Below, one piece after another: positions 7,531-57,745 of a stretch of 64,000 bases of DNA (position 1 is its first letter; every line of letters starts with the position of its first letter). Source of the DNA: Selaginella tamariscina (Eukaryota > Streptophyta > Lycopodiopsida > Selaginellales > Selaginellaceae); the NCBI GenBank assembly GCA_003024785.1, contig PUQB01000005.1, positions 601,217 to 665,216 on the forward strand, in the 5' to 3' direction. The notes beneath the pieces are model-generated. The model worked only from the letters and a program-made list of their open reading frames with translations, was not told the DNA's origin and searched no databases. The translations under genes were made by a program, and so were the position numbers.

Positions 7531-8329
7531 TTATGTAGGCCGTTATGATGTTGTGGCAAGCATGATGGCAATAAGGGAGTAGCCACAAGGGATGTAGCCA
7601 AAGCTATTCTTTTTATGGGCAGTAAGGAAGAAGTGCCAACATGGACGTATATGCTCTCCGAATGTTGCTGAATAGAATTATTTAGGTATTTGGAGGACCC
7701 TCAAAGTCTTTATGGGTAGCTATTGAAAATAATGAGATCATGGATTAGGTTATTTTGTGAAGGCTCAATGGGATGTCTATGTATATACTGAAGATGAAGG
7801 GATGACGTTTTATGATTGAAAAGTTTTTCTTTTGAAAGGTGGTGTTATATAGTTGTGGTACAATTTCTATAGATTGTAGGTTTATGTCAAAGATGCAAGC
7901 TCTTTGGTGTTTAAGCAAATGCTACAAGATTTAAAGCCATGAAAGCATCACAAGCAAGAGCTATTCACATCCTTGGTGTCCCATACAATGTTTGTCATAT
8001 TTTGACTTATAACTTCAATGCACGTTGTAATTAAAATGGGTATGATACATGAAAATAGGAATATAAATAATTGCTAATTAATACTTAAATTTTAATTATT
8101 AATTAATTATTAATTAATATGTAATTAAGCCTTAAATATTAATTAATTAATAAATTAATCATTCAATAACCTTACTTAGTAAGGAATATTCCTAAAATAT
8201 CTTAGAATATTTATATTATTCTTCGTTTTAAAAACAATAATTAAAAATACTATCAAACATAATTACAAATGAAATCATTTTCTTATTAACATGTTAATTT
8301 ATTTATAAATACTTTCTCCCTAACCATAC
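7531..8329. other. Unassigned AT-rich sequence
   Basis: There is no frame worth calling and no similarity to other parts of the window that I can see. Positions 8070-8170 are nearly pure A and T with repeated TTAATTAA-like words. Confidence 0.4.
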
Positions 8330-8604
8330 AGAGAAATCTTTCATTTTATCTAAATCATCATTCTCCTGATTAATTGAATCATTTTGGTTAATATCTTGAT
8401 GTTGTTGCCACCTCCTAACACTCTTACAAATGCAGTTTGGAGTTGCCATCCTTGTTAATACATAAGATGTGATAAGACCAGGTCTGTATAAAGGTTCATC
8501 TAAAAAATAACGTTCCTTAAAATAATATTGTAAAGTGCCCGATTACTATTCTTCATTTTATAAAACTCAAATCACGAGAAGAAAAGCGTCAGAAAATGTT
8601 TAAT

Positions 8605-9198
8605 ATGGTGGATTACTCACAAAAGTTTTCGAGATTCTTTTTTCTGAGGCACATATCCAAGTAGTTCACTAGCTCATTCATGGTATTGGTATCAGAATAT
8701 GGGTTGAAAGTGATTGGATGGATACAAGCAATGTTTTGGTTGAGCATAGCCTTCTGAGGAGAGTTATTTACTACTAAGATATGTGCATTCTTCATTATCC
8801 TTAAATGATTATGAAGCCTAATTAATCTTTCATTCTTGACAAAGTATGGCTCGCTTTCCTTTCTTATATTGTGAAATTCGAGAGTTTATAACATATTTGC
8901 TGGTCAAAAATCCAATCTTTATGAATCACCTCTTCTGCAACACTAATGTTTCTTAAGCAAATTCAACAGTGGTGTCAAATTGTGAATTTGCATGCATGAC
9001 CAAATCCCCACAAGTGCACCCATCTCCTTAAGCTTTTGAAAGAGACGGTCCAACCTGAATGAAAAATGATATAATATCGAAATTTACCATGACAAGGAAT
9101 GAAATCTCCTTGTTTGATTTCTTTTTTTCTATCCTCGGCCCTTTGTCAATGAAGCAGAACACCATTAGCATCCAACAACACAATATGGCCATGGATAA
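8605..9198 (-). pseudogene. FCP1-like HAD phosphatase gene, copy X: C-terminal domain
   Basis: Read on the minus strand from 9198 the segment gives, in shifting frames, VLLDANGVL (motif I region of FCP1/NIF phosphatases, usually D-x-D or D-x-N), then IGIWS-like VGIWSCMQIHNLTPLLN, then at 8613-8795 KNAHILVVNNSPQKAML and a short tail ending in a stop. In the family the later motif is normally DDSP; here both acids are Asn. Stops and frameshifts break the frame between the motifs, and the solo LTR at 9199 separates it from the rest of the gene. FCP1-like enzymes dephosphorylate phosphoserine in proteins such as RNA polymerase II; activity here is doubtful. The family call rests on motif recall only. 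Confidence 0.55.
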
Positions 9199-10906
9199 TA
9201 TCATAGTTTTTACTATGACTCAACCCCTTACTTTGGACGTTGACTGTTGTTACCTACTGTACTATGTTGATGGACCCTTATATAGTAATAACAGGCCCGC
9301 TTAGTGCACTTGGGTATCTGGTGATGGTCTTGCCGGGTGTCATTAGGTATTGCAGAAAACCCACCCCCAATTTTGACATCCCAATTAGGTTGATTGGTTA
9401 ATGTAGATGAGTCGGCATGTTTAGTAGGTTAGGAACACCCTAGGGTTGACCTAACTCTAAGGTTTCCCTAACCCACGCCCTAAAAACCCCCACCCCTTGG
9501 GTAGGGTTTTAGGGTTAGAGTTAGGCTAAGTTAAACACTCTCTCATTAATTTAATAAGGGGCTAACTAATATAATGCCAGCCCACATACACATACAGGAA
9601 AAGAGGGTGGGGGGGGCTCCGTCACATAAATAAGGTAGAGTATGTAGGAGTGAGGGTTCCTCGGTTCATGACTGAGCTTGTTACTCTTCTCCCAGTGCAA
9701 GCTTTAGCTTGTGTCGTCGAGGCACAACCCTTTGTTGTGCCACCATAACTTCCAAACGATAGGGGTACATCCCACCTTCGGGGTAGCTTACCCTTAACGT
9801 TGTGGAATCCATGCCTGGGAAGTCTTGTCGGGATGCACGTTTCAAGAGGCAGAGGTTGAGGCTTGTCTCCAACCTCCTCCACATTAAGCTAGGTGTAGCA
9901 CTCACAACCAAGCAAGGCACATCCGTGTCCTTGTCCAACTGTGGGCGTGGGATCTTGTTTGACAGGTTCACATTGCCTAGTTCCTGAGGGTTTACTGAGG
10001 GTTCTACAATTGGCATTTAGGAGCCACATTTGTGGCACTTGGTGCAACTCTTGAATGTAAGGGCTATGGCATGATAGCCCACATCATGGAAGGCAGTGTC
10101 ACATGGAGATGTGACACTGGCTAGACGTCACATGATACAACGTCCGAGGCACGCTCTTTGGGTTGTGTCATGGGCTTGTCGTCAAGGGTTGGATACTCTA
10201 GCAAACAGACATGCTTGTGCTTGCACTAGGGTGCTAAGCCTTGGGCATTTTTCTAAAGGGAGGTTAGGTCTCGTAACTAGGTATGCTTAGGCACACTTGG
10301 CTAGGGGAGTGTTCTCCTTGGAATCCAAGGGTTGAACAACCTAAGCTTGTTAGCAGAAGCCTTTTCTTGAAACACTCGCAAAGTCATGTACTTAGGATTA
10401 TCCAAACCTAACCTTAGGGACTTTGCTTAGCAAAGCACTCGTGTTTGCCTAAGGTGCATACTCGTGTCCTCACTAAGTATTAGTCGTAGGTCTAGGGTAT
10501 GACTTGGCCACTCAAACCCTTAGGGGTTAGTTGTGGTTTAGGTACCCCTTGTCGCCCTAAGGGTTGTACTCCCGAATGAGAGTGATTCCTCAAGGGGTAA
10601 GTGACAATGCCTTGGCTCTGTCACGAGGTATGTGTGAGACACATTTCCTTTGTGGGGTTAGGGCATGAGCCTGCCTAGGTCTACTGGGACAGGATCCTAA
10701 AAGTCTACTCGGGTTATCCTCTAGGGTTCATGGGATGGTCATTCTAGGGGACTTAGGGTAGGACTCTAAGTCTTTTGGACCTCTGAGTCAGACTCTTAAG
10801 GTTATCTTGGAAGACTTAACGTTGCTCACACAGGGTGATGACGTCGAATGGCCACTTGGCAGCCATGTGTTGCCACATGTTGGCCCTTCGGGTTAAAACT
10901 CTGATA
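9199..10906 (+). repeat. Solo LTR of the LARD family
   Basis: This is a 1708-bp LTR, TATCATAG...CTCTGATA, without PBS or polypurine tract beside it. It is flanked by GATAA (9194-9198) and GGTAA (10907-10911), a 5-bp target duplication with one change. The duplicate gene copy at 25750-25754 has the uninterrupted GGTAA, which shows the empty site. Loss of the internal part by LTR-LTR recombination is the usual explanation. Confidence 0.88.
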
Positions 10907-12729
10907 GGTAACATGGGGTAGTGTTGCCTCTTGAATGCTTTGCAACTCACTTGTTTACTTCCTTTCACATTTATCTATTGACACTATATCGTTGCCTATC
11001 CCTTTATCATTTAATTTACAAGATTCAAATATTGCAAGTGCTAAAGAAAGTGATTTAGGAACTGAAGCCAATAGAAATAGTGATGGAAAAACTAAAGTGG
11101 TCCCCATGGTAACGATGTTTTGAGCTGCATTATTATCCATTTCCTACATGAACTCTGTCATTATGAATGTGGTAGAAGAAATTTTTGCCAAACCCCTTTC
11201 TTAACTCATGGCAATGCTGAAAATCCATATTCTCAATTGTTTCATTACATCTACAAAATGATTTATAATTATCAAGGTATATTATTTACCTTGTTAATGT
11301 GTGACCCATGTTTGAACTAAAAGCTTCATTAATCCTTGAGAATTTATTTTCTGTACAAATATAAATGAAATATACAAAAATGCCTTATGTTACACTCATT
11401 TACAACTATTCGTCACTCTAAGAACTCATTAACAATTCTTCTTTGCTATTTTCTGAGTGAGGTGAAGAAGGTTTTAGCCACTTGGTAGATCGTTCATGAT
11501 CTTCTGTATCTTCTGTTGATGTTTCCATGGGTAATGAAGTATGTGAATGTTCTGTACTCCTTGAGATAACTTTCAATCTAATATCTGATTGAAAATTGTC
11601 CTCAGACTCCGACAGTGAACCATAATATTCGTCTTTAGAGTTATCGCACTTCTCGGGAGGGAACTTTCCCAAATACTCATGTATGTGTTTGTTAGGGTAG
11701 TTAATTGAGAACCTCTCTATCCACTTGTTCATGTCCTCAACCATGGTCTTATCCTTTTCAACGGCAAACACACATGTATCCCAAAGGTAACACTCCTTCA
11801 AGACAGACCCCCTAGTGCAGTACTCAAAACCCACGCATCACTGTGAGGACCCTTGATCAAGTTGACGATGCTCCGTGCCGCTTGACTTATAATGTTTGGA
11901 TAACAGATGCCTGGCTAGTCATTTGGAAGTTTGAAACTATTTGGCGCATTCTTAACAACCAAGTGAACAACTGTATCAATGCACTTCGGATCAGCATCAT
12001 TCATATAAAATCATGTCCAACGATGTTTATTCCTTTTGGCAAAGGCGCAGGCAAAAGTATCGGTGAGATGAGCAAGAATGAAGAAATAAATACCTGAAAA
12101 AGTAGGTATCAGTGAAGAGTGCAAGCATGAATCCAATAATAAATACCTTCTTTGTACATGCTTGCACAACTAAGTTTCTTCACCAAATCCTCTAGTGCCC
12201 TATCTGTCGAAGGATTTTTTGACACCGCCGATCCATCACAAACAATTGAAACGGTTTTCTACAAGCAGTGATGTTACCCCATAAAGTCTCTAAATCCGAC
12301 AACAAACATTTATAGGGCTTGTCGTGATTCATAGCATTCTCCTTTATAAGGTTCAACTCGGTTCTCCACTACTGAAGGACTGCCATAAGAGAAGGCGTCA
12401 TCACAATGTTCTCCTTTTTGACATTGGCGTGTAATAGATTCTTTCCCAGATCTTTCGATTGATTCACCCATTAAACAAGCATATCATTGTTTGTCACATG
12501 CAAATATTTTTTGACCTCTTTGTATGTTGAGGTCGAGGTCCAACCCAATTTGTGGTAGTGTATTCCCAACCACTCCTTGAAGTGCCTAACCATCTTCAAC
12601 TCTATTGCCTTGACATGAAAAGAAGAGGTGAGGTTACTGTTGTTAATTTGTAGTTTCCCATCAATCACCAAATCAGTCAAGACTTCCATCTCCTCCATTG
12701 TTGTTTCATTTAAAGGCTTCAACCATGTG
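10907..12729 (-). pseudogene. FCP1-like gene, copy X: middle exons
   Basis: The minus strand carries a 138-codon frame at 11418-11834, starting near GFEYCTRGSVLKECYLWDTC and ending in a Ser/Glu-rich acidic tail, and an 83-codon frame at 12471-12722. Broken frames between them match the second copy at 26396-27594 almost word for word. The segment 10955-11140 also aligns with 25770-25990. I do not recognise a domain in this part. It is joined by context to the HAD-like domain downstream and to 22216-23290 upstream, from which it was separated by the LARD inserted at 12730. Frameshifts and stops show it is dead. Confidence 0.6.
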
Positions 12730-14273: not shown

Positions 14274-14686
14274 ACACTCCCCGCCTTTGAAAATGTCAAC
14301 GTCCTCATTGACGTCTAACTCCAAGACTAGATAATGTCAGAAAAAAATTAACCAAAACTAACATATCACTCTATGTGGAGTCAACCAAAAGTTCACATAA
14401 GTTTCATTACCCCCCTTGCAATACGCGAAGCCAAGTACTTATGAACCGTCATTCACTGAGTCATAAACCCAGCTGCTAGAGGCACCACTTGCGACATGAA
14501 GTCACTTGGAGACCTTTTGCACGTCTGCAAAGTCTGTCACCCGACGCACACAACACTGGTTAATTTCTTTACTTAACTAGAATCTATATTGGAGGCCTCT
14601 AGTTAGTGTTATTACTGGCCCCTTGGTTAATAAGAAATAAAAACTTGCTTTATTCCTTAATATCAAACGCTATTGACAACCCTGTC

Positions 14687-15660
14687 TATCAGAGTTTTTA
14701 CCTAGTGCCACAAAGGCGACTTGCCATGTGTCAACCCTGGAATCCCCTCTTTAAAAACCCCATGGAATCTGATAAAATAACCCATATTAGGAACCCAAGC
14801 CCTAGGAACTCAAGCCTCTAGCTGATTAAGTCCATGAACGAGACTCACCTTGTGAATTAGGATACTCTAACTAGCCGAGCTTCAGGTGTCGTTCCTAGCT
14901 TGGCGTGGTTAAGGCGGCCGAAGCAGGGCTTCAACCATTAGTTTTGCAGAATGTGAACTCGGGCAATGCCTTTGAGCTTGCGGACAGGTTTTCGGACTAA
15001 GGAATCTAACTCCTTGGAAGTGACGTGCCCCTATCTCAAAGGCAAGATCCTGCCAACAATAAGGATAGTCTAACCCTAGGGTGGGTTGTACCCTTGTTTG
15101 TGGAAGTTTGGGTGGCACAATAAAGGGTTGCACCTTGACGACACAAGCTTAGCTTGCACTAATAGGAGGTTAACGAGCTCTTTTTGAACTCATGAAGCCT
15201 CACTACATATACTCTACCTTATTTATGTGACGACCCCCCCCCCGTCGTTTACCTAAGTGAGTAAGTGGGCTAGCTTGGAAATGCCAGCCCTTAGAGAAAA
15301 TAATTATCCTAACCTAATCCTAAACCTAACCCCTAGATGGGGGGTTTAGGGCGTGGGTTAGGGCAACCCTAGGGTTAGGTCAATCCTAAGAGTGTCCTAA
15401 CCCTTATTTTGACAAGTTATACTTTGCAAAGAACCCTAACCTAGAATGTCAAACCGGGGAAGAGTTTATAGAAGGTAAGTTCTAGCTTCACCTAGAGTTT
15501 TCTGCAAATACCTAATGACACCTGACCAGACCATCACTAGATACCCAAGTGCACTAAACGGGCATGTTTCCTAATACATCTAGGGTTCGTCACACAACTC
15601 GGTAAGTAACAACAATCAAACCCCAAAGTAAAGGGTCGAGTCATAGTAAAAACTATGACA
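14687..15660 (-). repeat. Nested solo LTR, shortened variant
   Basis: This is a 974-bp LTR, TATCAGAG...CTATGACA, inside the internal region of LARD copy B. The flanks CTGTC (14682-14686) and CTATC (15661-15665) form a 5-bp duplication with one difference, and the internal sequence resumes as in copy A near 3540-3570. Its U5-side half differs strongly from other copies and is partly deleted, so it represents another LTR subfamily or an older insertion. Confidence 0.75.
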
Positions 15661-20244: not shown

Positions 20245-20737
20245 TAACATAAGCCTTTCCCCATTTGAACACTACGATATTGAATCTTGACCTAAGCTAA
20301 AACTCAATGGACACTGTTTGTTTTCAAATCATGTGTTATCCCAAATTCAAACACCTTAATGAAAAAGAAAAATTTTCAATAATGTGTAAACTTAGCATAT
20401 CACATGATCCACTCACAAGACTGAGTTGTAAGTCAGAACAAAACTAACACGCCACGTCTTGTGGAAGTATTATAGTAAAGTAACCTGAACATTCATAAAG
20501 TAAAGTGACCTGGCCTACAACTTGAAAGTTGCCTTCCAAGTGCTACCTTCAACATTGGAGTCCATAACCCACATCCACTTATGGAGTAGGTTACTCTGAA
20601 GAGTTATAGATCTCAGGACCATATCTCCACACAGAATTCAGACGTTAGCCGAAAATGATAAAGTACTTTAAGAATTTAGAACTAATAAACCTTAAAACAC
20701 ACCACAATTTAGGCAGTCCTACTGACTATAGAGAATA

Positions 20738-20749
20738 GCTCCGATACCA
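20738..20749 (-). other. Primer binding site of LARD copy B
   Basis: The reverse complement reads TGGTATCGGAGC and lies two bases from the 5' LTR boundary at 20752, as in copy A. Confidence 0.8.
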
Positions 20750-20751
20750 AT

Positions 20752-22220
20752 TGTCAGAGTTTTAACCCAAAGGCCAACATGGCAACACATGGCTGTTAAG
20801 TGGCTATTCGGTGTCATCACCCTGTATAAGCAACGCAAGTCTTCCAAGATAACCCTAAGAGTCTGACTTAGGGGCCCAAAAGACTTAAAGTCCTACCCTA
20901 AGTCCCCTAGAATGACCATCCCCTTAACCCTAGAAATAACCCGAGTAGATTTTAGGATCCTATCCCAATAGACCTAGACAGGCTCATGCCCTAACCCCAC
21001 AAAGGATATGTGTCTCACAATACCCCTGTGACAGAACTAAGGCATCATCACTTACCCTTAAGGAATCACCTTCATTCACTAGTACAACCCTTTTAGCGTG
21101 ACAAGGGTCCCCTAAACCACGATTAACCCTAAGGGTTTGGGTGGCCAAGTCATACCCTAGACCTAGGGTTAGTACTTAGTGAAGACACGAGTGTGCGCCG
21201 TAGGCGGACACGAGTGTTCTACTAAGCAAACTCCCTAAGGCTAGGTTTGGACAACCCTAAGTACCATGACCTTGCGAGTGCTTCACAAAAAGGCTCCTGG
21301 TAACAAGTTTAGGTTGTTCAACCCCTGGATTCCAAGGAGGACACTCCCCTAGCCAAGTGTGCCTAAGCACACCTAGTTACGAGACCTAACCTCCCTTGAG
21401 CAAATGCCCAAGGCTTAGCACCCTAGCGCGAGCACAAGCATGCATGTTTGTCAGAGTATCCAACCCTTTGGCGACAAGCCGTGCCTCGGGCATTGTATCG
21501 TGTGACGTTTAGCCCAGTGTCACATCTCCATGTGACACTACCTTCCCGATGTGGCTATCATGCCATAGCCCTTAGATTCAATAGATGCACCAAGTGCCAC
21601 AAAGTGGCTCCTAAATGCCAACTCTAGAACCCCTTAGTGAACCCTCAGGAACTGGTAATGTGAACATATCAAATAAGATCCCACACTCACAATTGATCAA
21701 GGACACGGATGTGTCTTGCTTGGCCATGAGTGCTACACCTAGCTTGATGTGGAGGAGGAGGCTGGAGACAAGCCTCAACCTCTGCTTCTTGGAACGTGCA
21801 TCCCGACAAGACCTCCCAGGCATGGATTTACCAACGTTAAGGGTAAGCTACCCCAAAGATGGGACGTACACCTGTCGTCTGGAAGTTAGGGTGGCACAAT
21901 AGAGGGTTGTGCCTTGATGACACAAGTTAGAGCTTGCACCAGGAGAAGAGTAACGAGCTTAGTCATAAACCCAGGAACCCTCACTCCTACATACACTACC
22001 TTATTTATGTGACGGACCCCCCTCCCCGTTTTCCTAAGTGAGTAAGTGGGTTGGCACAGAAATGCCAGCCCTTAGAGAAAATGAGTTGTCCTAACCTAAC
22101 CCCTAGGGAGGGGGGTTTAGGGCAACCCTAGGGTGTCCCTAACCCTTATTTTAACAAGCTATACTTTGCAAAGAACCCTAACTTGAAACATCAAAACAGG
22201 CGATAGTAAGAACTATGACA
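20752..22220 (-). repeat. 5' LTR of LARD copy B
   Basis: It is 1469 bp and closely similar to its partner at 12730-14273, with which it shares changes not seen in copy A (for example ATTGATCAAGGACACGGATG). Sharing private changes supports that the two are one insertion event. Confidence 0.88.
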
Positions 22221-22520
22221 ATGTGAGCTTGAAATCATTGTTTACATCCTTTGTAAATTGAACAGACTTAGCCTTTGGCGTCTTACTAGGTTTCTTTGTA
22301 GACTTCTCTAAGGGCTCCTCTTCACTTGTCTACTTCTTCTTCAGTGTTCCTTTTTAAAAGGATTCCATAATCCTCAACCATTTGGCAAAGATCTTATCCT
22401 CCCGACAAGAAATCAGCATCATCAAAAAGGATGTTTCCTTCCCTCCCACATGGGCAAAATCAACTACTACAATTTCTTCAACTCTTTTAAAAAAAAAGAG
22501 ATAGATTAATATACCGGCGA
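22216..22520 (-). pseudogene. FCP1-like gene, copy X: Lys-rich exon
   Basis: The minus-strand reading just upstream of the LARD insertion starts at about 22370 and encodes a Lys/Thr/Ser-rich stretch (ESFxKxTLKKKQTSEGEP-like). The same exon recurs at 27600-27745 and, best preserved, at 39598-39708. It continues into 12722-12471 once the LARD is removed. A stop interrupts it here. Confidence 0.5.
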
Positions 22521-22836
22521 GATAAACCCCACCCAGACAATTTACTTACCCGTACATCACACATTGTGTATTCCCTGCAGTAGCTCTTTCTGGTCACCCA
22601 AGATGTTCTCACATGGATCTCGTGTGTTTGAGCTTCTCCCATATTTTGCTGTTGTAGTGGTTGGTGTCGGCAGCATCCTATTCCGCCGATAACTTATGGT
22701 ACTGCTCGATTGTGAGATTCGGCTAATTTTTCTTCTACGACTGATGATTTTCTTCTATGATCCAAATTAACATGTGTGATCCCCAACTGCAATTGTTCTA
22801 ATGTTCTCGGCACGCTCTTTTAGCTTCCGAAAATTC

Positions 22837-23289
22837 CTAGGCAAATTGAACATGATATGTAAAGAACCTAGGACCAAGCCACCCTTTCACCCTAATGATG
22901 TCGTTGTTTTTCTTCAATGTGAAGAGGACAATTGTTCCACTTGTGGATGTTTTGTATTGTGAAACAATCTTTGCTGAGAATACACTTACTCGATGAGTCT
23001 GAAGATCTTCAAAGTAGACATCTAATTGGATCCCCTCCATAGATGGACTTTCGTTGAGTTGAAGAAGAACTCCACCGTCAACATCATTAATGAACATGTG
23101 AACATCATTATCCACAAGTCGACAAAACCACACGAAATTAATGTCATAACTGGCGACCTCTGGATTCGAGAATGTGACATTAAATGGAACAAGGCATACG
23201 TGTCGAGCATCATCCAATTTGAGTTCACATATTGCTTTCAGGTGCTTGACTAGTAAATCTACTTTCCATTGTTTTGCTTGTCCCTGCAA
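22837..23289 (-). pseudogene. Unrecognised 150-codon frame at the 5' side of copy X
   Basis: This is an open frame of 150 codons on the minus strand, beginning MQGQAKQWKVDLLVKHLK and rich in alternating hydrophobic residues, suggesting beta structure. It lies upstream of the Lys-rich exon in the same direction and between that exon and the palindrome array, so it is probably an early exon of the same gene. I recognise no domain. The second copy (ending at 27825) lacks this part. Confidence 0.45.
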
Positions 23290-23844
23290 TGTGATAGAGG
23301 TTAGTTTGACAGCAACATGGTTACTCCAATACGCTTCCCATTTATTTTAAAATATGGTCAAGTTAATTCCAGAATCCCCCTGCCCATCTCTTTTCCTCCT
23401 CTCATCTTCAATGTCACCTCCATTCCACATCTAAATATAAAAATAATTAGTTCTTCAAGCACATATCTGAGTATAACAAATTTTATTATAATTTTTACCC
23501 AGAATTTGACGATGACTCCATATTAATGACTGAATCTTCTTGTTTGACGTCCTTCTGCACAATAATACACTATGAATATAAATCATATAAAAACGCACAC
23601 ACACTTGTATAAACCCGAATATAAAAAAATAATACACTGATAAATTCACATACACCCTGCTTTGTCTCATAGAGAAGTGGATGGGATTAACTATCCAAAG
23701 CTCATGTTTGTGATAATGCAAAAGACAAATAACATTTGGTTTTAGAACCACCACAAACGTGAGCTTTGGACAGTTTCACATATGGTAAAATGATAAAAGT
23801 AAATAAAATGAGATAAGCAACTTACATATAATACACATATATTC

Positions 23845-25020
23845 ACATGGAAGGTGCGGCGGATTTATCTCGCCACACCTTTTATGCCTCCTGAAAAAGT
23901 GGGCGGATTAATCTCGCCACCCTTTTGGACCCCCTGAATGGGTGTGCAAGATTAATCCCACCACCCTTCTCGGTCTCAGAGAGAACTAGGCAGGATTTAT
24001 TTAGCACACCCCTTCATGTGATCCAGAAGGGTGGCGGGATTAATCTCGCACACCATGGAAGGGATGGTGGAATTAATCTCTCCACCTTTCTCAGCCCCCT
24101 GAATTAGTATATAGTAACCCTTCTCCGTCTCAGACAGAAATGGTCAGGATTGATTCGGCTCACTAATTCATGAGACAAAGAAGGGTGGTGGGTTTAATCT
24201 CGCCGCCCCTTCCATGCCTGGTGGGCGGGATTAATCCTGCCCACGACACTCTCATATGGATTAAGGTAGTTGGCGGGATTAATCCCGCCACCCCTTCTAT
24301 GCCCGGTGAAGGGAATTAATCCTCCCTATATTTTTACGCCTCCTCGGAAGGACAGCGAGATTAATCCCGCTACCAGGCATAGAAGGGTCAATGAGATTAA
24401 TCCTGCTGCCCATGGCTTGCGCGAAGGACAGCGGGATTAATCTTGCCACCCTCTCGTAAATAATGTGCACACACACATATATATGGGTGGTGGGATTAAT
24501 CTTGCCACCCTCCGCGAAGGGATGGGCGTGCGGCGGGATTAATCCCACTGCCCAAGCCCTTTCATGCAGGTCATAGGCGGCGGGATTAATCCCGTCACCC
24601 AGGCCCTTCACATAGGCCATGGGTGGCAGGATTAATCCACCGCCTAGGCCCTTCACGCAAGCCATGGGCAGCGGGATTAATCCCACCGCCCTCTGCGCAG
24701 GGCATGGGCGTGCGGCAAGATTAATCTTGCCGCCCAGGCCCTTCACACATGCCATGGGTGGCAGAATTAATCCCTCCGCCCTCTGCATAGGGCATGGGCG
24801 TGCGGCTGGATTAATCCTGCCACCCAGGCCCTTGACGCAAGGCATGGGCGTGCGGCGAGATTAATCCACCGCCTAGGCCCTTCACGCAAGCCATGGGCGG
24901 CAGGATTAATCCCGCTACCCTCCGTGCATGCCATGGGCGTGTAGTGGGATTAATCCTGCGACTCATGAAGTTAACCAAATAGCATGCGTGAAGGGCGGCA
25001 GGATTAATCCCGCCGCTCAT
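23845..25020. repeat. Palindrome array 1 (about 26 units)
   Basis: About 26 imperfect copies of GGCGGGATTAATCCCGCC occur at a spacing of roughly 35-50 bases. Examples near consensus are at about 24222, 24272, 24580 and 24998. From about 24530 the spacers are themselves repeated (AGGCCCTTCACGCAAGCCATGGGC), so that part is a tandem repeat of about 45 bp. The ATTAAT core is the best conserved part and the flanks vary. A 182-codon frame on the minus strand is read-through of the repeat, not a gene. See the matching arrays at 41480-42243 and 57696-57745. Confidence 0.9.
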
Positions 25021-25256: not shown

Positions 25257-25749
25257 TGTATTGCTCACAAAAGTTTTCTTTCTGAGGCATGTATCCAACT
25301 AATTCACTAGCTCATCCATGGTATTGATATTATAATATGGGTCGAAAGTGATTGGATGTTCTTCATTATTCTTAATTGATTAATCTCCCAATGAAGCCCA
25401 ATTAATTTTTCATTCTTAAAGAAGTATGACTTGCTTTCCTTTGTTATATCTTAAAATTCGAGAGGTTTATAACATATTCGCTGGTCAAAAATCTAATATT
25501 TAAGAATCACTTCTTCTGCAACACTACAATGTTTCTTAAGCAAATTCAGCAGCGGTGTTAAGTTGTGAATATGCATGTATTAACCAAATCCCCACAAGTG
25601 CACTCCAACCCCGAGCAAAAAATGATATCATGTCAAAATTTACTATAACAAGGAATGAAATCTCTTTTTTTAATTTCTTTTTTTTTATCCTCAAGCCTTT
25701 GTCAATGAAGTAAAACACCATTGACATTTAACAATACAATATGACCATG

Positions 25750-25754
25750 GGTAA
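25750..25754. other. Empty target site matching the solo LTR at 9199-10906
   Basis: The sequence CCATGGGTAACAAGGGGTAG here corresponds to CCATGGATAA before, and GGTAACATGGGGTAG after, the solo LTR in copy X. It shows the pre-insertion state with a single GGTAA. Confidence 0.85.
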
Positions 25755-27596
25755 CAAGGGGTAGCGTTGCCTCTCGAATACTTTACAACTCACTTGTTTG
25801 GTCCCTTTCACATTTATCTTTTGACGCTATATTATTGCCGATCTCTTATTATTTACTTGTACATCATCCTAGATTCAGATATTGCAGGCACTAAAAAAAG
25901 TGATTTAGGAACTAAAGGCAATAGAAATAGTGATGCAGAAACTGAAGTGGTCCCCATAGTAAAGATGTTTTGAGCTGCATTATTATCCATTTCCTATATA
26001 AACTCTATCATTTTGACATGTGGCACAAGAAATTTTTGCCAAACCCCTCTTTTACCTCATGCTGCTACCGAAAATCCATGTTCTCGACTATTTTATTACA
26101 TCTGCAAAATGATAGTTATCTAGCCTTATAATTAACAAGGTATATTATTTAGCTTGTTAATGTGTGACCCATGTTTGAACTAAAAGCTTCTTTAATCCTT
26201 GAGAATTTATTTTATGTATAAACATAAAAGAAATATACAAAATGCCTTATGTTACATTCATTTACAATTATTTATCACTCTAACAATTCATTAACAATTA
26301 TTTTTCGCTGTTACCTTTTGAATGAGGCAAAGAAGGTTTTAGCCGCTTGAAAGATTGTTCAACATCTCTCGTTTCTTCTATTGATGTTTTCATGATCAAT
26401 GGAGTAAATGAATCTTCTGTACTCGAGATAACTTTTGGTCTACTATCTGGTTCAAGATTGTTCTCACCGAGATTGAATCAGATTCCTCTTCAGAGCTATC
26501 GCACTTCTCGGGAAGGAACTTTCCCAAATACTCCTGTATGGGTCTGTTGGGGTAGTTAGTTGAGAACCTCTCTATCCATTTGTTTAAGTCCTCAACCATG
26601 GTCTTATCATTTTCAACAGCAAACACACATGTATCCCAAAGGTAACACTCCTTCAAGACGGATCTTCTAGTGCAGTAGTAAAAAACCCATGCATTACTGT
26701 GAGGACCCCTGATCAAGTTGATGATGCTCCGTGCACCTTAACTTGTAATGTTTGGATAATGTACATGGAGGTTTAGGCCCGTTGGAGTGCAAACAAATGT
26801 CTAGCCAGTCATTTGGAAATTTAAAATTGTTTGGCGCATTCCTAACAACCAAGTGAACAATTGCATCAATACACTTGGGATTAGCATCATTCATATAAAA
26901 TTCAGTTCAACGATGTCTATTCTTCTTGGCAAAGACGAAGGCAAAAGTATCGGTGATATGAGCCAGAATCAAGAAATAAATACCTAAAAACGTAGATATC
27001 AGTTAAGTGTGCAAAAATTCAATAATAAATACCTTCTCTACACATGCTTGCACAACTAAGTTTCTCCACCAAATCCTCTAGTGCCTTTTTAAGGAAGGAT
27101 TTTTTGACACATGCCGATCCATCATGAACATTTGAAATGGTTTCTTGTAAGTAGTGATGTTACCCATAAAGTCTTCGAATTCGACAACAAACATCTGTAA
27201 GGCTTGTCATGATTCGTAGCATTTATAAGGTTTAACTTGGTTCTCCGCTGCTGAAGGACTGTCATAAGAGAAGGCATCATTGAGATGTTCTCCTTTTTGG
27301 CGTTGGTATACAATAGATTCTTGCTTAGATCTTTTGATTGGTTCACCCATTGGACAAGCATATTATCATCTATCACATGCAGATATTTGCTTTGTATGTT
27401 AAAGTCGAGGTCCAACCTAGTTTATGATAGTGTATTCCCAACCACTCCTTGAAGTGCCTGATCGTCTTTAGCTCCATTGCCTTGAGATGAAAAGGAGAGG
27501 TGGGCCTACTGTTATTAATATGTAGTTTGCCATCAACCACCAAATCAGTTAAGACATCCATCTCCTCCACCGTTGTTCTGCTCAAAAGTTTCAACC

Positions 27597-27601
27597 ATGT
27601 G
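27597..27601. other. Empty target site matching LARD copy B
   Basis: The phrase TTTCAACCATGTGAGCTTAA is continuous here. In copy X the LARD at 12730-22220 sits within it, with ATGTG duplicated on both sides. Confidence 0.88.
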
Positions 27602-27825
27602 AGCTTAAAGTTATTCTTTACATCCTTCGCAGATTGAACAGACTTAGCCTTTGCCGTTTTAGTGAGTTTCTTGACTTCTTCGAGGGCTCCCCTTCACTTG
27701 TCTGCTTCTTCTTCTTCAGTGTTCCTTTTATGAATGATTCCATAATCCCACTCATTTGGCAAAGACCTTGTCATCGGGGCAAGAAATCAACATTATCAGA
27801 AAGGATGTTTCCTTCTCGCCCACCT

Positions 27826-28440
27826 CAAGAAGCATTGATAAAGTCACGATTAACAAAACTGCAAAAGAATGTATGTTTTCTGAAGCTTAAAGCAATTACA
27901 AAATTATAAAATATAGTATATTTAATATTCATAATTATAATAAACTCTTTAATAATACTACCAAATTGTTTACTTAACTACATAAATTTATAAAAAGATA
28001 TGGAATCTTGATATAGGATTTTATATATATATATATTATTAGTACAAAGTTTTAATTAATGTTATATTTAAATATTAATATTTTAATAACAACATAAATA
28101 TTTATATAATGTAGCTCTCATGTTCTTTAATAATTTTTATATTAAACCCATACAATCTTAAATATAATTATTATATAGCTTTATATATTATTAATTTTTG
28201 GTCGATGAATGGTATAATTTATTAAAGGGGTCAATTACAGAAATATAATGTTCTAAAGAATATTCTGTCTTCAAACATATATTTTAAAGAATATTCTTTT
28301 TTTAAACATATATTATTCTAAAGAATTTCTTTAATATTAGAAAATGCTAAGTAAATAACTAAAATTGCTACTTATTAAGAAATGGGACTATAAACATTTC
28401 CATTTTAGTTACAATTTGCATACTAATTATGCTGCCCATA
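27826..28440 (+). mobile_element. Z-transposon tail, second copy
   Basis: The first about 60 bases repeat the last codons and stop of the Z transposase (45598-45661), and the following AT-rich stretch matches 45662-46128. The rest of the transposase gene is absent: the FCP1-like copy Y stands between this tail and array 1. It is either an internal deletion with filler DNA or the end of an element carrying a foreign gene. Confidence 0.75.
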
Positions 28441-39597: not shown

Positions 39598-39708
39598 TTG
39601 AACAAACTTAGCCTTTGGCGTCTTACTGGGTTTCTTTGTAAACTTCTCTAAGGGCTCCCCTTCACTTGTCTGCTTTTTCTTCAGTGTTTCTTTTGTAAAG
39701 GATTCCAT
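39598..39708 (-). pseudogene. Third fragment of the FCP1-like gene (Lys-rich exon)
   Basis: The minus strand starts MESFTKETLKKKQTSEGE and continues for 36-37 codons without a stop, the best preserved copy of the exon seen at 22370 and 27745. It is fused in frame to R-element sequence at 39597, which is an accident of insertion rather than a real fusion gene. Confidence 0.65.
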
Positions 39709-40139
39709 GGTGTGTATGTGTGAGAGAAGAGAGACATGCTACATATTATGGATTATGATCATGCATGGTGTGTATGTATGAGAGAAGGGATTATGCATGG
39801 TGACACTGTGTATGTATGAGAGAAGAGAGAGAGTGTTAACAAATTAAAATCGTACACATTGCATATATTAGTACACATATATACATACACACATGTATAC
39901 ACACAGACATATATATATTATATGTGTAAATTCAATGTGTTACATACACACAAACTGAGTACATATAGATCATACATGCGTTGAACATGATGTTTTCAAT
40001 AAAGAAACAATATATAATTTCCCAAGTTTGGTTTAGGGCAATGTGCATGTGTGTGCATATATGTCTCTATAAGTGCTTCTAATGCGTGTGCACATGTATA
40101 TATAAATTTATGATTGTGTTTATATATGTGTGCAAAACA
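39709..40139. repeat. TG- and GA-rich simple sequence
   Basis: Three copies of a GTGTATGTATGAGAGAAG-type phrase lie at 39709-39830, followed by CA/TA-rich simple sequence with scattered ATATAT. No gene is visible. Confidence 0.6.
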
Positions 40140-40930
40140 AATATTGAATAATTAAGAAAATAATATTAATAAACACACTATGAACATATTTTAAATTATA
40201 CATAATAATATATGATTGTATCTAATATATAGCCATATATAGTTTTAATAATATATATTAATTTAATATTGATAATAAGGTTTAACACTAGAATATTCTT
40301 GAAATAATAAGAATTTAATTAAGAAAATCCCATTAATATATACAAATGTAGATCAAGTACTGAAATAATTAACTAAATTAATTATGATAATCATGTTTAA
40401 TATTGGAATATTCTTGGAATAATAAGAAAATAATAAAGAATATCCCATTAATATAAAGAAGATTAATTACTCAAGTAATTAAGAAAATGATATTAATATA
40501 CACACTATAAACATATTTTAAATTATACATAATAATACATCATTTTATCTATATATAGTCATATATATAATTTTAATATATATTAATTTAATATTGATAA
40601 TAAGGTTTAACATAGGAATATTCTTGAAATAATAAGAAATTAATTGAGAAATATTAATATATACAAATGTAGAATAATTACTGATATATTAAGAATAAGA
40701 CTAATTTAATTTGATAATCAGGTTTAATATTGGAATATTCTTTAAATATTAAGAAAATAATAAAGAATATCCCATTAATAGTAGGAAATGTAAATTAATT
40801 ACTCGAGTAATTAAGAAAATAATAATAATAAAGACTATGAATATATTTTAAATAATACACAATAATATATCAATTTATTTATTTATAAGTGTATATATAT
40901 AATATATATTTAATAATATATACTGAATAT
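40140..40930. repeat. AT-rich tandem repeat of about 330 bp, two-part unit
   Basis: The phrase CACACTATGAACATATTTTAA recurs at about 40176, 40507 and, worn, 40832, so the period is close to 330 bases. Inside each unit two related halves begin GATAATAAGGTTTAACA (about 40269 and 40598) and GATAATCATGTTTAATATTGG (about 40386 and 40713). This gives an A-B-A-B order, a small higher-order repeat. Confidence 0.75.
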
Positions 40931-41479
40931 TCAGAATGTAGAATAATTACAAAAATTTGTAATATTAAACATTTGAATCACTTGAATCATATTAAATGCA
41001 ATTTTAAAACACTCATTGGAATTAAAGAGTATATATGTCAGATTGTCAATTATTGTTTCAACTCATCTTAAATTTTCTTTTCTGTTCTTTTTTAAAAATT
41101 TGAATTTCTGACATAAGTATTGTCGTCTGACATGTAAATTTGAAAATGCATTTAATTTCCCACTCAAATTCAATCTGGTTCTTTTTGGCAAGGGTTTCTT
41201 TATTTCTTATTTTTCACTCTTCAATTTTCTTTTTTCTTCATTATGATCAGCTCAGGAGCGACATTAAATTGGGTGCGCTATTGTTTATAGAAAGCACGCG
41301 CCTTCAGTGTTGTTTACAAGTAAGTATTATAAACAAATTTAGATATATTTATAAAGATTCACTCTCTTACATTCTCTCTTAAATTTTAGAATTTAGGGTT
41401 TAGGAATGCATTAGGATTACAATATATTTGTTAGGGATTTATCCCGTTTAAATATCCTTTAACTTAATATTCTCGGTTA
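40931..41479. other. Unique AT-rich sequence left of array 2
   Basis: No frame with recognisable content is present. It probably includes the left part of the Z transposon, whose exact end I cannot find because no second copy of this flank exists in the window. Confidence 0.4.
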
Positions 41480-42243
41480 GCCGCGGATGGGATTAATCGG
41501 CCATTTTTTTTCGCCTCTTAGAAGAGGTGGCGGGATTAATCCCGCCACCATCTCTTTAATAGCTATGGCAGAATTAGTTGGGCAATGCTTCTCGCCTTTT
41601 AAAAAGAGTGGAGATTAATCCCGCCTATAACTCTTCAACTGATAAAGAGTTACTTGAATTTATTAAAAGAGTTGTCAGCGGATTAATCTCGCCAACCATT
41701 TTAGGAGGCAGAGAAGGGGTGGCGGGATTAATCTCGCCACCACTTCCCTGTTTTAAATATTTGTGGGCAGGATTTATCCGAGATCTCTTTGAAATATAGT
41801 TTTAGAGAGAGTTGTGGGCGGGATTAATCCCGCCGCTTATTCCCCGTCGTCAGAGTTGTGGGCGGATTAATCCCCCCCTCTTCCTCGTCAGAGGATTTGC
41901 GGCGGGATTAATCCCGCCGACTTCTCGACGAGGAAGATCCGGCGGCGGGATTAATCCCCGTACTTCCTCATCGGAGGGAGTCCCGGCGGGATTAATCCCG
42001 CCGCTCTCTCGACGAGGGAGTCCGGGCGGGATTAATCCGCCGATCTTCCTCCGAGGGAATCGGCGGCGGGATTAATCCCGCCGATTCTCTTGGGGAGAGT
42101 CGAGGCGGGATTAATCCCGCCACTCTCTCCGAAGGGAGTCGCGGCGGGATTAATCCCGCCGACTCTCTCCAAGGGGTAGAGTCGGGGGATTAATCCCGCC
42201 GACGTTCCTCGTCGAAGGGAGTCTGGGCGGGATTAATCCCGCC
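41480..42243. repeat. Palindrome array 2 (about 17 units) before the transposase gene
   Basis: About 17 copies of GGCGGGATTAATCCCGCC at roughly 40-base spacing. Many, such as those near 41529, 41818, 41900, 41985, 42063, 42103, 42140 and 42224, are perfect over 16-18 bases. Spacers are GA/CT-rich and partly repeated (TCTCTCGACGAGGGAGTC-like, itself imperfectly palindromic). The array ends about 145 bases before the first transposase exon. In En/Spm-type transposons, subterminal arrays of short motifs bind the element's own protein; the same role here is inference. Confidence 0.92.
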
Positions 42244-42389
42244 CATCAGTTGTATTAATAAAGCATGAGATATTATCTTTATACATAATTATGTATTATT
42301 GCACATGCATATTATTAAGCAACGCAGTTATGATTTCTTAAAATATTGCATAAACAGATATCATAAATAACACAATTATTTATGTGCAG

Positions 42390-45300
42390 GACAATATGTA
42401 TAATACTGGAGATAAAGTATGTCTTCTTCGGAACAACGAGATAGTTGGCACTGGAACTGTGGAAGTTCGAGATGATAATGCATCATGTCACAATATTGCC
42501 CAAGGATCTTGTGTGTACGTATGGGTGAACACCATTTTCAAGCATGTTGAGGTTCCGGAATGGAATTTGAGGAGGGTTCTCCTGTATTGTGGAATTTGGA
42601 TGAAGTCAAGGCTGACACAGAATATACAGAGTCACAAACAAACAGTAGCACGAGTTTTCCAGATGATGGCTTGCCTGCTGTGATGGATGAGGTGATTCTC
42701 TTTCTTCATGAGATTGAGGTTGGGAGAGGCATCATCACAGCTATAAATCCAATGGAAGCAGTGTCAGAAGAGAAACTAGGGTCCGACTTCGTGGGTGTAG
42801 TTGTGACAGAGGTTTCACCTAATGGCACATTGCATCCTGGATCCCTCGTGAGGTGGCGAACATCTGAATTAAGACGGCAAGATGGTTCAACATATTCTGG
42901 GTTGGATTTCAATAATAACAACCCGGAAGAACAACTCATATTTGAAGAGGTTCCTTGCATTGGTCCTATTGTAAGAAAAAGGCGATTCATGGGTTGCAGA
43001 TCTTCCCCTGCAAGTTTCAGCAAGAGGGTGAAGATGGATCCTACATCTTCCGAAAGTGTTACGAGCATTTCCACGATTGACTGCTGCAAGAAGAAGTGTT
43101 GTCAGATGGCAGACCGGAATGAAATTACCCAATGTAGACATGTCTTTCGTACGCTCACCCAAAAGCAAAGGCATGAGTTTGTATATGCTGCACTAACTGG
43201 GTGTATTGATGGAATGGCCTCGGACACAGGTTATCAGAGTACATCCATGGTATTTAATAAGGTGGCCATCTGCTTCAAAGCTTGGTACAGTATATACGGG
43301 ATCCCAAAGACCACGTTCTACCGTCGGAGGGATGAGTGGCTAGATGGAGCGCGAACCTCAGTACATGGGAACACTCGCTTGGTCAAAACCCGCTCTCACA
43401 TTATGGCAGCCATAGAGATACTCAAGGCTTTTGTGGAAGCAAATGCAGACAGGATGCCTCACAAATGCCGAACCACAAATGCAGGGGTCAGGGAAAATCT
43501 CAAGGTTTTGCCTTGATCTACACTCAATTGAAGCTGTGTGAACATGTGAACAAGTGCCTCAGCTTGATGGGGCTGCAAGCAATCTGCACTGGTACCTTCA
43601 ACAACATATGGAATACTCATTTTAAGGATGTGGAGATTGCAAAACACTCTAGCTTTTCCAAGTGTGACACTTGTACATCATTGAAGGCTGCAGAGGCTTG
43701 TGCAAAAACCTTGGTGGAGATCACTGCCATTCAAAAGAAGATGGAGGCCCACATGATTGCACAACAAACTTGCCGGTCTCAGTACTATGCACACCGCATG
43801 CTTTCTGTGTCACGCCCATCAGAGTACCTGTGCTTGATCCATGACAAGATGGATCATTCAAAGACCAGCATTCCAAAGCTCGTTGCAACACCAAAGTGCC
43901 TTGGAAATGTCATGAAACTTCCGATTTCATTGACAGGTGTGCTAACACATGGACACGGTTGTGAGTCATATGGACACTTTTCACTTCCACATTGGTCTAG
44001 CGACTCCAATTTCACTATTGGGTCGTTGGCCATGTGTTTCAGAAACCTTGAAGCCCACTCACAGACAAGTCCTATCAGTGATCTCAAAGTGAAGAAACAA
44101 CACCTTCAACCTTTACATAATGCTCTCATGAACACGTCTGCACTTGAGGCTACTTGGGAATATGAGAGGCATTGTCAGCACCTGCACAAAAAACAGATGG
44201 CCCTGTTGAGAGTTCAGGTTCAGTGGAGGGATCTAGCTCAAATAGTGTACATGTGTCCTCAACATCAAATAAGCTTCCTCGTCATTTGCTTTTACAGATG
44301 GATAATTGTGCAGGCGAGAACAAAAATAGGTAAATCATTTTACTTAAGGGTTTCTCAAGCTCATACTTATTTATTTTTTTTCTAAATATGTGCTAGCATA
44401 TGGATAGTGTTTACTAACCTCCTAGAAAATGTAAAAACCTGTGTTATATGATTTTTCGTTTTAAATAAATCTCAAATAACTAAATCACAAAATAAAAAAA
44501 CTGTGGAAGAGTTCACAAAAAAGATTATACTATCAGTTTTATAAAGATAAATAAATATATTGTTGCCAAAGGTATGTTTGAAACAATCATGCTAAGTTTT
44601 CTTATGGTTGGTCACACTCATGAAGATATTGATGCGTTCTTCAGCAAGGTCTCCAACTCTACAAAAAGGACAAGTGCACTTACCTTATCACATATGATGA
44701 ATCTTTTTGAAAATTACATCTCCAAAAAAAGTTGTGCTTTGCTTGTGACTGAGGTGCCAGACTTCAAAATTTTTTTCAAGGAGTATATAAAAGAGGGGAG
44801 TGATTCTTTAGTTGGTCACCTTGTGCCACTACAATTCTTTTTCTCCATACGAGATGATATACCTATTATGCAATACAAGTTACGGCCATCAGAGCATGAG
44901 TGGTTACCGAAAGAGGGGTTAATGCTCTTCAAAAGTGGAAAGAATGGAAAGCCACTTCTCCCAGAAGGACAACCAGACCCTATTCCATTGAGTGCCCAGC
45001 TCAAGGAACAAGAGGTTATTATTGATAGCATCAAAAAAATATGTGGCATGGGTTCAAAAATCGATGCCAAAGAATTTTGATAAGGCAACTGGTTACTCAG
45101 AACTATATAAGCATGTAGTTGACTATTGGGAGACTGTTGTTCGAGAGTTGGAAGGGCCTACTGTCACAAGTACAGAATTGCAACACCCTTTTTGGCCTAA
45201 AACAAGGTGGCGAGAGGAGATTGAAATAACATCACTGAGCACAGAGGACATGGAAGCCATAGTGATGTGGAAGTGTAAACCTCACACTTTGTTGGACAAA

Positions 45301-45661
45301 GGAACCAAAAACCTAAAGCATACTTTGATTGTTGCAAGGATCTTCAAAAACTCACGATGGTTCTCATTACTCCAGATGTGTCATATAATCAGCATATTTG
45401 GATGGGTCAAATTATCGACACACCTGAAGTAATCACAAAAATAGTATGGTTAAGGTTGCATGGTTTAAACCACAAAAAAGGCGACACGAGAAGGAGAGCG
45501 AAAGATATAATGGATGCCTAGAGAAAACATGGTCTCCCAATCAAAAAGACCCAGCATGTTTTATAAATGTTAAATCCATTCGATATGGGTGGATGTCAAG
45601 AAGCGTTGATAAAGTCACGATTAACAAAACTGTAAAGGAATGTATGTTTTCTGAAGCTTAA
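42390..45661 (+). pseudogene. Z transposase, DUF7869-like
   Basis: The first exon follows an acceptor at 42389 (TTTATGTGCAG). Its N-terminal part has two similar segments (VGTGTVEVRDD... and VGRGIITAINP..., each ending V-x-W), resembling the Tnp1-type domain of En/Spm proteins. Then come CCKKKCC, KAWYSIYGIPKTTFYRRR (about 43276-43330), the SKCDTCTSLKAAEAC block, HDKMDHSKT, LLLQMDNCAGENKNR (to 44330), a donor GTAAAT, an intron, then AKGMFETIMLSFLMVGHTHEDID (from about 44568) and a C-terminal VKVAWFKP block ending at the stop at 45661. The D-x-x-D, DNCAGEN and GHTHEDID motifs look like the acidic centres of an RNase H-fold transposase. Frame breaks occur near 42565, 43500, 44190 (A-run), 45040 (A-run), 45350 and 45440, so it is dead. 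DUF7869 is recalled from similar plant proteins and was not searched. Confidence 0.72.
44332..44567 (+). other. Intron of the Z transposase gene
   Basis: Coding sequence stops at GAGAACAAAAATAG with donor GTAAATC and resumes near GTTGCCAAAGGTATG. The family normally has about ten residues (YVFAFLSLL-like) between these points, and here they are not readable, so the acceptor is uncertain and some coding sequence is lost. Confidence 0.5.
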
Positions 45662-46128
45662 AGCAATTACAAAATTATAAAATATCATATATTTAATATT
45701 CATAATTATTATAACTCTTTAATAATAGTACCAAATTGTTTACTTAACTATATAAATTTAAAAAACGATTTTGTATATTATATATATTATTACTACAAAT
45801 TTTTAATTAATAATGTTATATTTAAATATTAATATTTTAATAACAACATCAATATTTATATAATGTACCTCTTATGTTCTTCCTTAATTGTTATATTAGG
45901 CAATATATTATATAATTTAATACTTTCTACTTTTATAATGTTATTAATTTTTGTTTAATGAATGCTATAATTTATTAAAGGGTCGAATACAAAATAGAAT
46001 ATTCTATTTTCAAACATATATTCTAAAGAATATTTCTTTAATATTAGAAAATGCTAATTAAATAGCTAAAATTACTAATTATTAAGAAATGGGACTATAG
46101 CTATGCCAATTTTAGTTACAACATGCAT
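45662..46128 (+). other. AT-rich 3' tail of the Z transposon
   Basis: It is shared with 27887-28440 (same orientation) and, over about 160 bases, with 56937-57100 (reverse). Similarity ends around TTAGTTACAA, some 20-30 bases before the R-element starts, so the true terminus lies near 46115-46128 or has been lost. I do not see a clear terminal inverted repeat. Confidence 0.6.
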
Positions 46129-56830: not shown

Positions 56831-57100
56831 GCTCCAACTAGTATTGTTTTGCTATTTTATTACTAAACACCATCGTAAGACAATAACAGTCAAAGCTGAG
56901 GTGGTCTATAAACAAGATGGTCATTTCTTAATAATTAGCAATTTTTAATATTAAAGGATAATATATGTTTAAAAAAAGAATATTCTTTAGAACATTCTAT
57001 TTTGTAATTAACCCTTTAATAAATTATAGCATTGGTGGATAAAATTGATAACATTATAAAAGTAAAAGGTATTAATATATTATATTTAAGATTACATGGG

Positions 57101-57676
57101 TGTTGAACAAAGAAAATCCTAACACTAAAGAAAACATAGTAGTGGTTGGCACTGTCAACCCGTAATAAAGGTCAAACAGAATAAGGAAAACGTGAAAAAG
57201 AATAAATATCGGACTTTAAAAGGTTGGTAAAGGGCAAGGTATGTAGTAGGTAGCAGAATTGTGGATCCCATTACAGTGCTGAGAAATGAATAGTATACAT
57301 CAAAATAGAGAAATAGGTAAGAGAAGACATATTGAGAGTAAGATAAAACTTATATTATATCTGCACACGACACATAATACAATATAAGTATACTCAGGAT
57401 GCCCTCCTAGTCCTAAACTGGCTTTACTCCCGTTCCTGTACTAGCAGTTATTGTAACTTCCTCCTAGCCTTATCTTATTAGTTATCATAACTCCTTCTAA
57501 TCCTTATCTTGATGTGCCATACTTCATCTTCAACATTGTATTACAATAGTAAATCTATCATATTATGATAGTGACTCGTAATTCTGTATTTCCATCTGAC
57601 TCTTGTTTTTTTCACAAATATACTTTTTTTAGTGTTTTTCCCATTATATGCTAGATGACTAACTACAATCCTAACA
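57101..57676. repeat. Possible solo LTR (copia-like) inside the miniature Z copy
   Basis: The stretch begins TGTTGAAC and ends TCCTAACA, giving TG...CA ends with TGTT/AACA inverted tips and a length of 576 bp, between the Z tail and the palindromes. No clear target duplication is seen (ATGGG against CCCCC) and no second copy exists in the window, so the call is weak. Confidence 0.3.
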
Positions 57677-57695: not shown

Positions 57696-57745
57696 GTGGG
57701 CGGGATTAATCCCGCCCAGGGGTGGCAGGATTAATCTTACCCCAC
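57696..57745. repeat. Palindrome pair (array 3)
   Basis: One near-perfect unit (GGGCGGGATTAATCCCGCCC) and one worn unit (GGCAGGATTAATCTTACC), preceded by an 11-12 base C-run. Confidence 0.85.

Follow-up and report, generated by a model that had tools for sequence, protein, structure and literature searches.

Paired arrays of an 18-bp palindrome in predicted first introns of a DUF7869 transposon of Selaginella tamariscina: candidate binding sites for a dimeric regulator

What does a dense array of a perfect palindrome do directly in front of a transposase-like gene? The question is raised by a 64,000-nucleotide stretch of the Selaginella tamariscina genome (the window), in which the 18-bp palindrome GGCGGGATTAATCCCGCC was matched 30 times with up to three mismatches, against 0.01 expected from dinucleotide shuffles. 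These matches comprise 14 at 41529-42243, 15 at 23901-25014, and one at 57699. When sites were counted loosely, by a centre of ATTAAT, ATTTAT or ATAAAT and up to eight mismatches, the array beside the DUF7869-like gene (array 2) held 17 centres at 41486-42243, eight of them perfect and 14 within three mismatches, in agreement with the dense array of about 17 copies described in an earlier note on this DNA. Its sites are spaced 39-51 bp apart, apart from two wider gaps of 68 and 79 bp, and the last one ends at 42243. The distance from there to the predicted exon that carries the ATG of the DUF7869 gene (42396) is 146 bp, where about 145 bp had been claimed. The earlier note was silent on a second array (array 1; 24 loose sites at 23857-25014), which apparently belongs to the same element as array 2. 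Fourteen of its 24 loose sites lie within three mismatches, and a fifteenth such site, at 24187, has a different centre. The lone palindrome at 57699 is probably a remnant of another copy of the element.

As read from the sequence, array 2 is one of two arrays inside a DNA transposon that has inverted ends and carries two divergent genes. Both arrays of a single element are present in five fetched loci (L009, L013, L015, L017, and L018), all arranged as U gene, array 1, centre, array 2, DUF7869 gene, and in each the two genes read outward. The four elements for which both ends were located are 13.8-15.4 kb long. Beyond each gene lies an inverted end, ATGCAnGTTGTAACTAAARTGGGCATG with small variations. 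The right end was recognized in 29 of the 30 loci L019-L048 (L033 is the exception, and the end of L044 is degenerate), and the flanks of the recognized right ends differ among loci, except that L029 and L030 share one. The transposon is thus, on this sequence pattern, mobile: its inverted ends are found at many unrelated sites. Matching 3-mers, read by eye, flank two of the four elements, E3 (TAT) and E4 (TTA), and not E1 or E2. The common right-end flank of L029 and L030 (C102 and C235) may mean that a single locus entered the assembly twice, or that it was duplicated. At L014:1650-1760, an element has inserted into another copy, beside that copy's array; this junction suggests that ATGCA is part of the element and not of the target.

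The two arrays of the window are most economically read as parts of one broken element, 8018-46128, split by nested insertions. The features are as follows.

8018..9193, minus strand: left element end and 3' end of the U gene; the left terminal inverted repeat ATGCACGTTGTAATTAAAATGGGTATG begins at 8018
10904..12729, minus strand: further U-gene segment, collinear with locus L010 and separated by other repeats
22218..23640, minus strand: 5' part of the U gene, reading away from array 1
23857..25014, no strand: array 1, 24 loose palindrome copies in front of the U gene
25359..28421, no strand: second, internally deleted copy, in which the 3' part of U is joined to a right end; its left end was not found
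39706..41319, no strand: conserved centre adjoining array 2, including the presumed DUF7869 promoter and 5' exon
41320..42389, plus strand: predicted intron 1 (5'-UTR) of the DUF7869 gene, which holds array 2; splice signals conserved in aligned copies
41431..41448, no strand: weak outlying 18th site, TTAGGGATTTATCCCGTT, recognizable in most aligned copies
41486..42243, no strand: array 2, 17 copies of GGCGGGATTAATCCCGCC, eight perfect, 39-79 bp apart
42396..45480, plus strand: DUF7869 gene, a frame-broken copy with ATG at 42396 and an open reading frame at 42560-43516; the 3' limit is approximate
45596..46128, plus strand: right terminal region, whose inverted repeat ends with GTTACAACATGCAT at 46128
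57699..57716, no strand: lone perfect palindrome with a degenerate neighbor at about 57723, near a right-end fragment at 56932-57101 (minus strand)

The deletion derivative at 25359-28421 is among the nested insertions that break the window element. Other repeats, copied elsewhere in the window, occupy 9194-10904 and 12730-22217 and split the window element. AT-rich tandem repeats of 327 bp lie at 40149-40914 in the element centre, by array 2, and are matched in other copies. Retroelement-like open reading frames are found at about 46.4-47.4 kb.

We searched the 300.7 Mb assembly (1391 contigs) for sites, ends, and DUF7869 genes. The palindrome occurs 59,903 times with up to two mismatches, and the element ends occur 3,965 times (2021 + 1944) with up to one mismatch; the reversed controls gave no sites and 0 ends, respectively. 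This corresponds to about 1,980 element equivalents, and hence an estimated 2,000 or so copies, with about 30 sites per pair of ends, or two arrays of about 15 each; the per-element figure is an estimate, since the count of ends includes those of deletion derivatives. In the fetched stretches, site clusters are often paired, 3.0-3.9 kb apart. The first 100 ends listed include 28 adjacent inward pairs, of which 22 are 10-20 kb apart, and 20 of those 22 combine a left with a right type.

The arrays are tied to the DUF7869 genes. The DUF7869 profile gave 4249 first-look candidates, and the 150 that were scored gave 300 matches, those listed all being over the cut-off. Among 20 genes sampled as every seventh of the matches listed (third to 136th), 17 have an array of 4-19 sites located 1.9-3.3 kb upstream of the domain, while none of six matched downstream control stretches has one. 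The three sampled genes without an array differ in kind: L069 has U-gene sequence in its place, L061 has no homology to the window, and at L079 another element's left end is inserted beside the array's gene-side end. Four other DUF7869 matches have 8, 12, 14, and 0 sites (three of four with an array), and the zero, at L051, is due to deletion. The link to this gene family that had been proposed was therefore borne out in the sampled genes, and the loci examined presented neither a genome-wide satellite without such a link nor unrelated arrays at each locus, the two outcomes named beforehand as speaking against it. We reject a satellite or unlinked clusters as the source of the arrays, given the 17 of 20 genes with an array, the 3,965 ends, and the internal position of the arrays in the elements.

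Each array sits in the predicted first (5'-UTR) intron of one of the two divergent genes, a placement that we draw from conserved splice signals on both sides. For array 2, the alignment has 30 rows representing 29 distinct copies, with one locus entered twice. The donor ACAA|GTAAGTATT is present in 29 of 29 distinct copies and the acceptor GTGCAG|GACAATATG in 26 of 29, the exceptions being TGTAG, TGCAA, and one deletion. For array 1, the predicted donor is CAG or TAG|GTGAGATC (5/5 copies), and the predicted acceptor GCAG|AAGGACG (7/7) is followed by the ATG of the U gene. In the window, the predicted U acceptor GCAG lies at about 23555-23558, directly before the first ATG exon.

The transposon copies are apparently young. 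Of 19 pairs of nearest copies of the DUF7869 intron region, located at different places, 16 diverge by 0-0.5% and three by 1.3-1.8%. Intron length was compared for pairs with recognized boundaries (pairs with L065, L068, L070, or L087 were excluded and L063 was dropped), and it differs by 42-356 bp in 9 of 12 pairs with up to 0.3% divergence and 0-2 mismatches in the aligned array. Since near-identical copies differ in repeat number, array length changes faster than mutations accumulate. L013, L017, and L018, which lie at separate places, have zero mismatches over 603-721 aligned array bases and hold 13, 18, and 16 sites; we read them as a very young burst with unstable arrays.

Fast changes in unit number between near-identical copies are what one would see if the arrays were neutral tandem repeats hitchhiking in a successful transposon. 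That explanation predicts equal drift of core and spacer, but conservation is far higher in the core, which recurs with unrelated spacers. Entropy was 0.57 bits over 12 unanchored core columns vs 1.42 in the spacer (73 unique 45-bp units, picked by core similarity with up to six mismatches, which favors the core). When only the left GGCGGGAT was required, the remaining ten positions agreed with the consensus in 90-99% of 449 sites. Of the 336 sites whose arms match exactly, 324 have ATTAAT as their centre, as do 499 of the 541 sites allowed up to one mismatch in each arm. Spacings of 45 bp are the most frequent (164 of 557 spacings under 200 bp), followed by 44 bp (75). Between array 1 and array 2 of five elements, arm identity is 0.891 (again with sites picked by core similarity), and spacer identity is 0.372, vs 0.346 for shuffled spacers. 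As the core is common to both arrays and the spacers are unrelated, the core, and not the whole unit, is the common feature. We already disfavor the neutral explanation and hold it to be very improbable; gene conversion confined to the 18 bp would revive it.

The same conservation bears on a function at the RNA level, in which the intron transcript would fold into successive hairpins and so govern splicing, retention, or the production of small RNAs. Any core can form a hairpin, and pooled spacers fold at -6.95 kcal/mol vs -4.34 for shuffled ones. Once the arrays were separated, the pooled spacer excess was gone for array 2, with a weak remainder in array 1, and we set it aside. Sense folding beats antisense in 29 of 40 representative array-2 spacers and in 13 of 25 array-1 spacers (three ties). 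The array-1 spacers do fold better than their half-swapped counterparts (1 and 5 of 100 swaps as good), whereas those of array 2 do not (13 of 100 swaps do as well when all spacers are used, and 57 of 100 when representatives are). The spacer dyads noticed earlier are thus present, but in array 2 they pair no better than half-swapped spacers. In the core, the arms give no consistent excess of compensatory change over 319 sites (arm matches of 0-16% per position vs 1-12% when permuted), and conservation of the loop ATTAAT equals that of the stem. Flanking pairs covary, at position 10 (0.571 vs 0.441, sd 0.021) and position 17 (0.489 vs 0.411, sd 0.023), which can stem from the relatedness of the units. 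Rfam gave no match at 41200-42500. Preservation of the palindrome as a structure was rejected on the lack of consistent covariation between the core arms, and we consider an RNA-level role improbable. On balance, the pattern favors a symmetric, sequence-reading protein over a hairpin. This upholds the earlier suggestion of a symmetric protein site, as arms and centre are conserved as sequence and the core is common to arrays with unrelated spacers.

CpG sites in the arms had also raised the matter of methylation. Observed/expected CpG is 0.40-0.49 in coding stretches and 0.66 in the element centre, with TpG+CpA about 1.4 in both. Array-2 spacers have CpG of 0.65-0.84 and TpG+CpA of 0.25-0.54; in array 1, spacer CpG is 0.63, not above the centre (0.66), and TpG+CpA is 1.01, without depletion. 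These values are not independent, as tandem units have common ancestry. The array-2 signature is only suggestive of a methylation difference, and array 1 adds little support. Substitutions at CpG and non-CpG positions number 14/1906 and 22/4228 in the array and 2/222 and 20/1577 in coding sequence, which gives no contrast and has little power. Five copies in this set (L063, L065, L068, L070, and L087) had no recognized donor or acceptor, and the last four were kept in the substitution test with untrimmed starts.

Which protein could read the arrays? The window exon of the DUF7869 gene matches Pfam DUF7869 (PF25273) with E = 3.8e-18 and 66.2 bits, vs a cut-off of 26. Further pieces lie at 43522-44331 and 44574-45080, with another predicted intron at about 44332-44560, and a second downstream match to DUF7869 falls just under the cut-off (E = 1.3e-5). 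In L087, 646 codons are open between the ATG and the predicted intron, and a stretch of 392 codons is open around that intron and beyond it. In C80, an in-frame stop lies at the predicted intron, within a reported 1,092-codon open frame. Eight relatives of the protein were found, one of which has a name and comes from the liverwort Riccia sorocarpa. DUF7869 is the sole significant domain in the gene pieces and relatives; across the window pieces, L087, and the eight relatives, there was no significant DNA-binding domain and no Pfam match to Transposase_21 (tnp2), and a MULE-type transposase was likewise without a match. The N-terminal part has sub-threshold matches to HTH_29 (E = 0.07, in relatives), HTH_psq (0.13), and Transposase_23 (0.023-0.18). 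The predicted structure of a relative was set aside, with a mean pLDDT of 49.6 and a best Foldseek E of 0.68.

The U gene has a late exon (L010:7236-7847, plus strand) that matches NIF, a CTD-phosphatase-like domain (PF03031), above the cut-off with E = 2.8e-7; its homologue in the window lies within 25359-26766 (minus strand). NIF is the sole significant match among the U exons, and no DNA-binding domain was found in the U pieces tested. The U middle exon (L010:4699-5397, plus strand), with YYIISGQHTITAAQRLLDEH, has what we take to be a resemblance to a ParB/sulfiredoxin-type module, but it gave no PDB match and no homologue, and nothing better than E = 0.03 in Pfam, NCBIfam, or PHROG. A NIF/CTD-phosphatase-like domain is unusual accessory gene content for a DNA transposon.

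We propose, at about even confidence, that the arrays are binding sites for a dimeric protein, probably encoded by the element itself, that regulates both genes. This reading fits because dense, conserved palindromes lie in both predicted first introns and are retained despite fast turnover. Each array would serve as a high-density landing strip for a homodimeric DNA-binding protein, and the many sites in cis would confer selectivity. Binding in both first introns would open or un-methylate the central promoter region, so that both genes would be driven together, as VANC does for VANDALs and TNPA for Spm. The candidate binders are the U protein and the N-terminal part of the DUF7869 protein, and the direction of control and any role of methylation are part of the proposal. 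In a far more speculative version, which we regard as a long shot, U would be a transposon-borne CTD-phosphatase-like anti-silencing regulator. A dimer with a C-terminal NIF/HAD domain and possibly a ParB-like N-terminal module would coat the intron arrays and act on RNA polymerase II or chromatin, and both genes would stay transcribed through host silencing.

Host factors could bind the array sites instead. The arms GGCGGGA/TCCCGCC resemble E2F sites, and TTAATCC resembles plant WOX homeodomain sites. An amplified host motif would then recruit a host transcription factor and switch the element genes on in particular cells, and the palindrome can be viewed as two E2F-like half-sites, head to head. 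However, GGCGGGAA, which we take to be the form preferred by E2F, is almost absent from the loci counted (7, vs 897 for GGCGGGAT), and the conserved 18 bp exceed what one host half-site needs. Amplification of E2F sites by plant transposons is known from Brassicaceae (PMC12595863), in which MITEs and other DNA transposons likewise multiplied sites genome-wide; here, in contrast, a full palindrome stands in ordered arrays within a coding element, with GGCGGGAA nearly absent. We judge recruitment of a host factor to be unlikely.

The arrays might also act in cis during transposition, in transposase binding and synapsis, like the TNPA-bound subterminal repeats of CACTA elements. TNPA recognizes motifs repeated in the subterminal regions, which serve as cis-determinants of Spm/En excision, and the subterminal motifs of soybean Tgmt* can form palindromes (PMC2613891). 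Against this, the arrays lie 3.8-5.2 kb inside the element ends in all four elements with both ends located, and right-end copies without arrays exist (the L022/L051 copy and the 25359-28421 derivative), although these perhaps moved before the array was lost. We therefore consider a direct role in transposition unlikely.

The regulator reading has precedents. The targets of VANC are tandem repeats of short motifs in introns and upstream regions, with units gained and lost fast (PMC5735166), and motif density confers specificity (PMC5735166, PMC10398659). The Selaginella element resembles VANDAL/VANC of Arabidopsis (MULE superfamily) in being a multi-gene transposon with tandem motif arrays in introns (here predicted) or upstream and rapid turnover of units. 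It differs in its motif, an 18-bp palindrome with a 45-bp period instead of the 9-bp YAGTATTAY, and in transposase type, with DUF7869 and no MULE domain match. The scans reported nothing VANC-like in the pieces they covered, U having been scanned in pieces only.

The earlier note had drawn the comparison with En/Spm (CACTA). TnpA activates Spm, and activation correlates with demethylation (PMC10398659). Both are large elements with many motif copies, and the motif is bound by the element's own protein in En/Spm, as is proposed here. The comparison nonetheless fails on array position and terminal sequence: the arrays here are internal, in predicted introns, so that a subterminal, CACTA-like position was rejected (a comparison that covered the GGCGGGATTAATCCCGCC motif only), and the ends begin with ATGCAnGTTGTAAC, whereas En/Spm ends begin with CACTA or CACTG. 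A 3-bp target duplication, as in En/Spm, would fit two of the four elements here. En/Spm has Transposase_21, vs no such match here and Transposase_23 only below the cut-off. Judged by its sequence, the element falls outside both VANDAL and CACTA on transposase type, and outside CACTA also on ends and array position. For the proposed control, VANC/VANDAL is the nearest working parallel and Spm TnpA the second. Searches of open-license PubMed Central found no paper on the DUF7869 transposon family, on the 18-mer palindrome, or on NLI interacting factor with transposons, and among the matches listed for palindromic or first-intron tandem arrays, none concerned the DUF7869 family by title or abstract start.

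If the regulator reading is true, control by a motif array plus a trans-acting element protein would have arisen independently in a DUF7869 transposon family, and U, if it is the regulator, would provide a route to anti-silencing that involves neither VANC nor TNPA. Any host factor able to recognize the palindrome could be titrated by its roughly 60,000 near-identical copies in 300 Mb. With an estimated 2,000 copies, near-identical young members, and at least one copy in which both main coding stretches are open (L087), binding, silencing, and escape from it are directly testable in this family.
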